Below, one piece after another: positions 45,601 through 48,600 of a stretch of DNA of 64,000 nucleotides. The translations under genes were made by a program, and so were the position numbers. The stretch lies in the NCBI RefSeq assembly GCF_045679555.1, contig NC_092115.1, forward strand, positions 36,836,728-36,900,727, written 5' to 3'. Source of the stretch: Salvelinus alpinus (taxonomy: Eukaryota; Chordata; Actinopteri; Salmoniformes; Salmonidae). The notes below the pieces were generated by a model that was given only the letters and a program-made list of their open reading frames with translations, ran no database searches and was not told where the DNA came from. The first letter of the stretch is position 1. Every line of letters starts with the position of its first letter.

Positions 45601-48600
45601 CCGCTGTCCTTACTGAGCACGTCCGCTGAGAACACAACACACACACACACACACACATCACAGACATGACAGATAGACGTTAAAGTGTCATCACAAACCC
45701 AGGGGGCAGGGAAGGGACTTTTAACATACATACTTTCAAACACACATTATGCCTGAACTTTCATATATGCTACTGTTTGTGTAATAGACTGTAAATATAA
45801 TGATTTGGTGGGTGCTTACATTTGTCCTATTTCAAACATGTACAAGTGTGCATTAATGCGTGTGATTTGGAAATGTGTTTTTTCCATATCCCTCTGAGAA
45901 TGGGGTCACGGCCAGGGTCTGCCATTCAAAGGTAAACCTGGAGCAAATAGGATTAAGTGCCTTGCTCAAGGGCACAGACAGATGTTTCACCTTGTCGGCT
46001 CGGGGATTTGAACTAGCAACATTACGGTTACTGGCCCAACGCTCTAACCGCTAGGCTACCTGCCACCACTATAACACCACTGTTTACCATACAATGTCAA
46101 CCCTTTCTCTGGGTGAATGTAAAGAGCCTCTTTTGTTTGTAACAAATGAAACAGGCCTCTGCTCTGAGTTTTTGGTGCACTCATACTCACTGTTGTAAGG
46201 GAGAGGTGGAGATGTGAGGCAGCTCAACAGGTGATTCTCAATCTTGCCCCCCGAGAAAGACTTGGAGCAGAACGGACAGCGGATATCTGGGGATGGGATG
46301 ACAAAAACATGCGCATGATTAACGACGAAACATTAGACAAACAAAAGCGGGGAGAAGATCAAATCAACTTGTCCATCATCAAATATCAATATGCCTTGCA
46401 TACTGTTGTTCAGGCTAGTTTTCATTATCATTGTTTTGGTTTGCAATGGACCCTGTAGTTCCACTCTCCGTACCTCTGATACCCCCTTTGTCCCACCCCC
46501 CACACATGCGGTGACCTCACCCATTGAGACCAGCATGTCCAGAGATACAACCTCTCTTATCATCACCCAGTGCCTGGGCTTGCCTCCGCTGTACCCGCGC
46601 CCCTCCATACCCCTGTCTGCACATTATGCCCAGAATCTATTCTACCACGCCCATAAATCTGCTCCTTTTATTCTTTGTCCCCAACGCTCTAGGCGACCAG
46701 TTTTGATAGCCTTTAGCCGCACCCTCATCCTACTACTCCTCTGTTCCTCGGGTGATGTGGAGGTAAACCCAGGCCCTGCATGTCCCCAGTCACCCTCATT
46801 TGTTGACTTCTGCGATCGAAAAAGCCTTGGCCTCATGCATGTCAACATCAGAAGCCTCCTCCCTAAGTTTGCCTTACTCACCGCTTTAGCACACTCTGCC
46901 AATCCTGATGTCCTTGCCGTGTCCGAATCCTGGCTTAGGAAGGCCACCAAAAATTCTGAGATTTCCATACCCAACTATAACACTTTCCGTCAAGATAGAA
47001 CTGCCAAAGGGGGAGGAGTTGCAATCTACTGCAGAGATAGCCTGCAAAGTTCTGTCATACTTTCCAGGTCTATGCCCAAACAGTTCGAACTTCTAATTTT
47101 AAAAATTAATCTCTCCAGAAATAAGTCTCTCACTGTTGCCGCCTGCTACCGACCCCCCTCAGCTCCCAGCTGTGCCCTGGACACCATCTGTGAATTGATC
47201 GCTCCCCATCTAGCTTCAGAGTTTGTTCTGTTAGGTGACCTAAACTGGGATATGCTTAACACCCCGGCAGTCCTACAATCCAAGCTTGATGCCCTCAATC
47301 TCACACAAATCATCAAGGAACCCACCAGGTACAACCCTAAATCCGTAAACATGGGCACCCTAATAGACATTATCCTGACCAACCTGCCCTCCAAATACAC
47401 CTCTGCTGTCTTCAATCAAGATCTCAGCGATCACTGCCTCATTGCCTGTATCCGCCACGGGTCCGCGGTCAAACGACCACCCCTCATCACTGTCAAACGC
47501 TCCCTAAAACACTTCTGCGAGCAGGCCTTTCTAATCGACCTGGCCCGGGTACCCTGGAAGGATATTGACCTCATCCCGTCAGTTGAGGATGCCTGGTCAT
47601 TCTTTAAATGTTACTTCCTCACCATATTAGACAAGCATGCTCCGTTCAAAAAATGCAGAACCAAGAACAGATATAGCCCTTGGTTCACTCCAGACCTGAC
47701 TGCCCTCGACCAGCACAAAAACATCCTGTGGCGAACTGCAATAGCATCGAAGAGCCCCCGCGATATGCAACTGTTCAGGGAAGTCAGGAACCAATACACG
47801 CAGTCAGTCAGGAAAGCAAAGGCCAGCTTTTTCAAGCAGAAATTCGCATCCTGTAGCTCTAACTCCAAAAAGTTCTGGGATACTGTAAAGTCCATGGAGA
47901 ACAAGAGCACCTCCTCCCAGCTGCCCACTGCACTGAGGCTAGGTAACACGGTCACCACCGATAAATCCGTGATAATCGAAGACTTCAACAAGCATTTCTC
48001 AATGGCTGGCCATGCCTTCCTCCTGGCGACTCCAACCTTGGCCAACAGCCCCGCCCCCCCCGCTGCTACTCGCCCAAGCCTCCCCAGCTTCTCCTTTACC
48101 CAAATCCAGATAGCAGATGTTCTGAAAGAGCTGGAAAACCTGGACCCATACAAATCAGCTGGGCTTGACAATCTGGACCCCCTATTTCTGAAACTGTCCG
48201 CCGCCATTGTCGCACCCCCTATTACCAGCCTGTTCAACCTCTCCTTCGTATCATCTGAGATCCCCAAGGATTGGAAAGCTGCCGCGGTCATCCCCCTCTT
48301 CAAAGGGGGAGACACCCTGGACCCAAACTGTTACAGACCTATATCCATCCTGCCCTGCCTATCTAAGGTCTTCGAAAGCCAAGTCAACAAACAGATCACT
48401 GACCATCTCGAATCCCACCGTACCTTCTCCGCTGTGCAATCCGGTTTCCGAGCCGGTCACGGGTGCACCTCAGCCACGCTCAAGGTACTAAACGACATCA
48501 TAACCGCCATCGATAAAAGACATTACTGTGCAGCCGTCTTCATCGACCTGGCCAAGGCTTTCGACTCTGTCAATCACCATATTCTTATCGGCAGACTCAG

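Follow-up and report, generated by a model that had tools for sequence, protein, structure and literature searches.

A predicted 2A site between a hydrophobic leader and the endonuclease-reverse transcriptase of a single-ORF APE-type LINE in Salvelinus alpinus

Does a LINE in the genome of Salvelinus alpinus use a 2A-like motif to shed the N-terminus of its only protein, and if so, what kind of leader would be shed? The question is raised by a stretch of 64 000 nucleotides (contig NC_092115.1 of assembly GCF_045679555.1, positions 36,836,728 to 36,900,727; hereafter the window), in which a first-pass annotation had noticed the nonapeptide GDVEVNPGP near the start of a long LINE open reading frame (ORF). 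That annotation proposed that translation, if the motif is active, releases a leader peptide ahead of the enzyme, remarked that a 2A can also act as a signal sequence, and suggested that the leader could be the ORF1-like product that the element seems to lack.

The element is a single-ORF APE-type LINE. Its ORF (46391..49651, plus strand) starts with ATG and stays open for 1086 amino acids, and Pfam matches an endonuclease (EEP) and then a reverse transcriptase (RVT_1) within this one frame. The AP-type endonuclease domain covers residues 151-348 (46841..47434, plus strand; PF03372, E 5e-9), with the human L1 endonuclease 1vyb as its Foldseek match. The reverse transcriptase (RT) domain at residues 646-887 (48326..49051, plus strand; PF00078, E 2.4e-32) has YADD at residues 806-809 and matches L1 ORF2p and R2. 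By sequence, the nearest solved structures to the whole ORF are human LINE-1 ORF2p and R2 proteins, and the top structural match of the ORF model is LINE-1 ORF2p (E 5.9e-33; the model has a mean pLDDT of 59.2 and thus modest confidence). What we take to be the catalytic-type motifs are in place. The 3′ tail has a hairpin (49943..49998, plus strand; -21.1 kcal/mol, z -2.51, with 3 of 200 shuffles folding as well) and ends in an A-rich repeat, as expected of an APE-type LINE. The element probably belongs to the L2/CR1/Jockey group, and by likeness it may be a member of the L2 clade (Jockey group).

One close copy of the element is present in the window (3805-1048, minus strand; 84.8% identical). 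Between the ORF and this second copy, dN/dS is 0.11 in both blocks that were compared (481 and 411 codons, with dS of 0.63 and 0.58 and one stop-containing codon pair set aside), and the endonuclease-RT part has therefore evolved under constraint. The dS of about 0.6 suggests that the second copy represents a separate subfamily and not a recent daughter. Because it starts at residue 194, it does not include the 2A leader region; it is a 5′-truncated copy in which two long stretches stay open, each in another frame (1048-3805). Two further LINE relatives are found at 18948-21476 (plus strand; ∼41-45% identical to the ORF over matched stretches) and 11929-10765 (minus strand; ∼27-30% identical over matched stretches), and no NPGP motif is present near either of them. 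The window also contains a repeat array at 54555-55540 with a unit of ∼142 bases.

The nonapeptide was said to occupy residues 121-129 directly behind a leucine-rich run, and we confirmed it there, in frame within the 1086-residue ORF (46751..46777, plus strand). DVEVNPGP conforms to the 2A/StopGo core (D/G/C/N)(V/I)ExNPGP as defined in PMC12846837. Translated in all six frames, the window has no second NPGP, and 0.00027 matches to the core are expected in it by chance (127,996 six-frame codons at its base composition), with 2e-6 expected in one ORF of such length. A DNA-level search allowing three mismatches returned one match against 0.54 expected, which alone is not significant; the site itself has no mismatch. 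The predicted skip falls between the codon for Gly128, which ends at 46774, and that for Pro129 (46775-46777), and the endonuclease Pfam match starts 21 residues downstream of the core. The preceding residues (...LLLLCSSG-D), judged by eye, match the L-rich StopGo class, whose viral members have (A/S/C)G immediately ahead of the Asp at p12 (PMC12846837). Viral motifs 2 and 6 of this class, the latter active in vitro in reticulocyte lysate, share with the window an L-rich hexapeptide ending in SG and the Asp at p12, whereas the window motif differs in lying in a LINE and in having Val at p15, for which the L-rich motifs are said to prefer Ser (PMC12846837).

Upstream of the core, the leader has three parts, all on the plus strand. 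Residues 1-22 (46391..46456) form a signal-peptide-like hydrophobic N-terminus; the best 12-residue mean hydropathy within the first 40 residues is 3.24, a value reached by 58 of 20,000 leader shuffles. Residues 23-101 (46457..46693) are a Pro/Ser/Thr-rich spacer with 12 P, 11 S and 9 T among 79 positions. Residues 102-120 (46694..46750) are the hydrophobic leucine-rich run before the 2A core, read from the sequence and from a helix in the structure model, and the leader is thus hydrophobic at both ends. The model, of low confidence in this region, predicts leader helices at 2-18 and 107-117 with low-confidence coil in the rest, and places the first endonuclease strand at residue 148. No Pfam match was found in residues 1-127.

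For comparison, the pattern GD(V/I/M)ExNPGP was scanned in prokaryotic genome contigs totaling 257 billion bases, giving 44 motif sites at 43 loci. Six of the loci (L010, L011, L012, L027, L029 and L037) encode LINE relatives with tblastn E-values from 6e-78 to 7e-8 and are probably eukaryotic sequences that ended up in metagenome bins or in the assemblies of symbionts; the contigs of the remaining 37 are not LINE-like, their tblastn matches having E-values of 0.14 or worse. At least four L/I/V/F/M residues occur in the 10 positions before the motif in all six LINE loci, as opposed to 5 of the 38 other sites (Fisher p 6.5e-5, at a threshold picked after the window had been seen and with some of the 38 sites mutually related). 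The LINE comparators are 23-29% identical to the window ORF. In L027, in L011 (where Pfam gave the RT only and the endonuclease was read from the alignment) and in L012, a short open stretch of 172 amino acids from stop to stop, the 2A lies directly before the endonuclease region, as it does in the window. In L010 it is near the start of a 359-amino acid ORF (4669-5748, minus strand) upstream of the endonuclease-RT ORF, and in L029 near the start of a 491-amino acid frame (2983-4458, minus strand) that is still open where the contig ends and lies upstream of the endonuclease-RT frame. L037 has a single frame of 1365 amino acids, likewise open at the contig end, which combines the 2A with a PHD-finger match too weak for the Pfam cut-off (E 0.0044), the endonuclease and the RT.

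The layout of the window leader is found again in L027, a divergent LINE with 29% identity over the whole ORF: a hydrophobic start whose hydropathy is reached by 194 of 20,000 shuffles, a spacer and an L-rich run. The two spacers align with a score of 51 against a shuffled mean of 30.6, and 16 of 2,000 shuffles score as high. A three-part leader common to elements this far apart suggests retention by selection, and the comparison, made on one pair of sequences, is suggestive of such selection within one lineage. A signal-type N-terminus is also present in L010 (2 of 20,000 shuffles) and absent from L011 and L029 (14,468 and 7,411 of 20,000), the test being confined to comparators with a Met upstream of the 2A in the contig, which left out L012 and L037. 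The spacers of L010, L011 and L029 could not be aligned with that of the window (1,660, 197 and 1,222 of 2,000 shuffles as high). The three-part leader is therefore not general, and we rejected both leader homology as a general rule and a signal-type N-terminus as a general feature of 2A-bearing LINEs.

Other searches returned little. Protein scans of viral contigs and genome contigs found no relative, nor did a scan with the L027 protein, and the tail pattern had no match in public contigs. The plain 2A pattern was found at two loci in viral contigs, and at neither of them does an L-rich run immediately precede the motif; an L-L-x-x-G-D 2A pattern, which the sequence of the window itself would not fit, had no match there. 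One short RT match (L046) came from an alignment scan, and one phage record and two plasmid records gave partial matches within residues 573-885 only. Among the motif loci, L004:2-7387 (minus strand; Planctomycetota bin VGXS01000063.1) has an open frame of 2462 amino acids with Pfam matches to a gag-type zinc knuckle (weak), RT, RNase H and integrase. It carries GDVEPNPGP twice, between the knuckle and the RT and between the RNase H and the integrase, and is apparently an LTR-type retroelement polyprotein divided by 2A sites. L030 and L041 (minus strands; Pseudoalteromonas caenipelagi and Proteiniclasticum aestuarii) have in common a frame of 748 amino acids in which a P2A-type peptide leads into an antibody-like chain, recognized by eye as probable laboratory vector contamination.

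A 2A in a LINE is ordinary in kind, and the unusual part of the window element is the make-up of its leader. The occurrence of 2A in one-ORF APE-type LINEs is already published, reportedly in the work of Odon and colleagues in 2013. Together with that of Luke and colleagues in 2014, this work reportedly described 2A sequences in APE-type LINEs of many animals (clades Rex1, Crack, L2, L2A, CR1 and Ingi), tested their activity and linked them to one-ORF elements and the loss of ORF1; Rao and colleagues are said to have surveyed 2A in eukaryotes and viruses with profiles in 2025. The window element resembles these LINEs in having a 2A near the N-terminus of the endonuclease-RT ORF, upstream of the endonuclease, and no ORF1, a combination that we take to define 2A-bearing one-ORF elements of the APE type. 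It may differ from them in its signal-type N-terminus ∼100 residues upstream of the 2A. The trypanosome elements L1Tc and Ingi reportedly also have a 2A at the N-terminus of the LINE ORF (Heras and colleagues, 2006), and belong to another LINE clade and host, in a comparison of descriptions. In literature listings on 2A in retrotransposons, no title or opening of an abstract concerned a signal peptide upstream of a LINE 2A, which is no proof of novelty.

ZfL2-2, a competent zebrafish L2 LINE, has one ORF with endonuclease and RT and a 3′ tail hairpin as in the window; the accessible text mentions no 2A, and the comparison was made on parts other than the N-termini (PMC4176376). That a 2A can serve as a signal sequence, as the first-pass annotation had noted, is published for sea-urchin NLR proteins: the 26-amino acid N-terminal 2A peptide of SpNLR2A is itself the signal sequence, and the uncleaved product enters the exocytic pathway while the cleaved product goes to the cytoplasm (PMC4981915). 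SpNLR2A and the window element share a hydrophobic leucine-rich run directly before an N-terminal 2A core, and SpNLR2A combines recoding and signal function, both of which are predicted for the window element (PMC4981915). The latter differs in its leader of 128 amino acids, its separate N-terminal hydrophobic run and a LINE enzyme as the downstream protein. With the motif at residues 121-129 and the main signal-type run at residues 1-22, ∼100 residues upstream, the 2A of the window is not itself the N-terminal signal.

Starting from a motif whose sequence, frame, improbability and recurrence in other LINEs are matters of observation, we consider it probable that the element is a single-ORF APE-type LINE with a detachable leader, separated by the 2A from the endonuclease-RT. 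The 2A interpretation of the first pass is strengthened by the canonical core, the L-rich context, the reading frame, the APE-type host element and the same layout in independent LINEs, and its activity is a prediction from these. StopGo most likely releases a leader of 128 amino acids, with the enzyme beginning at Pro129. Ribosomes would first make the signal-type hydrophobic segment, the Pro/Ser/Thr-rich spacer and the leucine-rich helix; as DVEVNPG filled the exit tunnel, the Gly128-Pro129 bond would not be formed, the leader would leave with no stop codon involved, and a share of the ribosomes would resume at Pro129 to produce an endonuclease-RT without the hydrophobic leader. The 2A may thereby keep a leader inclined towards membranes or the ER apart from an enzyme that has to get to RNA and into the nucleus, and drop-off at the 2A may throttle the enzyme supply. 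By the logic of the sea-urchin NLR, the LINE enzyme would stay free of the hydrophobic leader.

Compatible with this detachable leader is the view, which we hold possible while leaning slightly against it, that the window copy is 5′-truncated and owes its ATG (46391) to the target site or to junction microhomology. The native leader could then be longer, and the copy would be without its own 5′ UTR and promoter, which concerns the copy and not the family. The sequence ATGCC, which includes the start codon (46391..46395, plus strand), recurs directly after the A-rich tail (50035..50039, plus strand) as a possible 5-bp target-site duplication, and this is weak since the 300 bases examined would hold ∼0.24 such 5-mers by chance. 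No target-site duplication of at least 7 bases was found at the junctions; matches of that length were limited to CATGATTA at 46314 and 50107 and its sub-matches. Truncation would agree with the inserts of ZfL2-1, most of which have duplications of 1-8 bp with a peak near 5 and 5′ joins with microhomology or extra bases, full-length inserts being rare (PMC4245944). It would also agree with a change of composition across 46391, the upstream side having A at 0.42 and a C-G skew of -0.07 and the downstream side a skew of 0.31, but change-point models disagree on the boundary, giving 46451, 46461 or 46355 according to model order, and so do not fix it. About 100 bases upstream of the ATG, an exon-like stretch lies between AG and GT on the minus strand (46191-46286) and has a weak C2HC zinc-finger match below Pfam's cut-off; the LINE would sit antisense in the neighboring intron of a host gene. 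Given this nearby stretch and the ATGCC repeat, the junction may coincide with the start codon, and the copy may be missing its 5′ UTR. Against this, L027 begins with a Met at almost the same position, in a context that looks strong, which supports the ATG as the native start of the family. The description of the LINE as intact thus holds for the open ORF with its catalytic-type motifs, with the reservation that the copy may be without a 5′ UTR.

A stronger claim, which we regard as unlikely, is that some LINEs bear a removable secretory leader, a true signal peptide and the spacer leading the translating ribosome to the ER and the 2A then freeing the enzyme into the cytosol. Such a leader would be part of the first protein to be translated, the ORF1-position protein in L010 and L029 or the endonuclease-RT in the window and L027, and its own function might be to site translation or RNP assembly at the ER or to provide a secreted or membrane peptide. 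Against this, and against the detachable leader in general, stands the finding that translocation into the ER can inhibit 2A to an extent set by the immediately preceding sequence (PMC2978324); ER targeting would accordingly hinder a clean separation of the leader.

The same inhibition by translocation of the upstream part (PMC2978324) would favor a reading to which we give a rather low probability, that in this family the 2A has little or no activity, the enzyme working as the full-length fusion and the hydrophobic leader being tolerated or just a relic. The core alone does not determine 2A activity (PMC12846837), and the only close copy in the window begins downstream of the core. The core and its L-rich context nevertheless recur in LINEs that are 23-29% identical to the window ORF, which is unexpected of a relic.

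We consider it quite improbable that the released leader stands in for ORF1p as an RNA chaperone or gag-like product. The absence of a visible ORF1, as first described, is well founded: there is no ORF of at least 200 amino acids just upstream of 46391 on the plus strand, the three frames there are interrupted by stops, and the exon-like minus-strand stretch lies ∼100 bases away. An element without a separate ORF1 would be open to such a substitute, and 2A is said to correlate with the loss of ORF1 in APE-type LINEs. The idea that the leader is the missing product is nonetheless weakened by the leader itself, which has no Pfam match and no folded core in the model, showing two helices in low-confidence coil and hydrophobic residues at both ends. 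In L010 and L029, moreover, the 2A leader precedes a separate ORF1-position protein (without a Pfam match at E 0.01 in either locus), and leader and ORF1 therefore coexist. The 2A accompanies whichever protein comes first in the element, which argues against the leader as a simple replacement of ORF1; the comparators suggest a companion of the first protein more than an ORF1 substitute. ORF1 itself varies greatly across L2 and CR1 lineages, which include single ORFs with an N-terminal PHD (PMC4120745), and the one-ORF ZfL2-2 retrotransposes (PMC4176376).

That the motif arose by chance in a meaningless N-terminal extension is scarcely credible, for although the nonapeptide does arise by chance in 257 billion bases, with 37 of 43 contigs not LINE-like, its expectation in one ORF is minute and it is repeated at the same place in other LINEs.

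With its detachable leader, the element would be one more LINE whose enzyme is probably controlled, in amount and in destination, by stop-and-go translation of the viral type. If the signal-type reading of the leader is true, it raises the question of why a retrotransposon that acts in the nucleus would start its protein with an address for the ER and then remove it.
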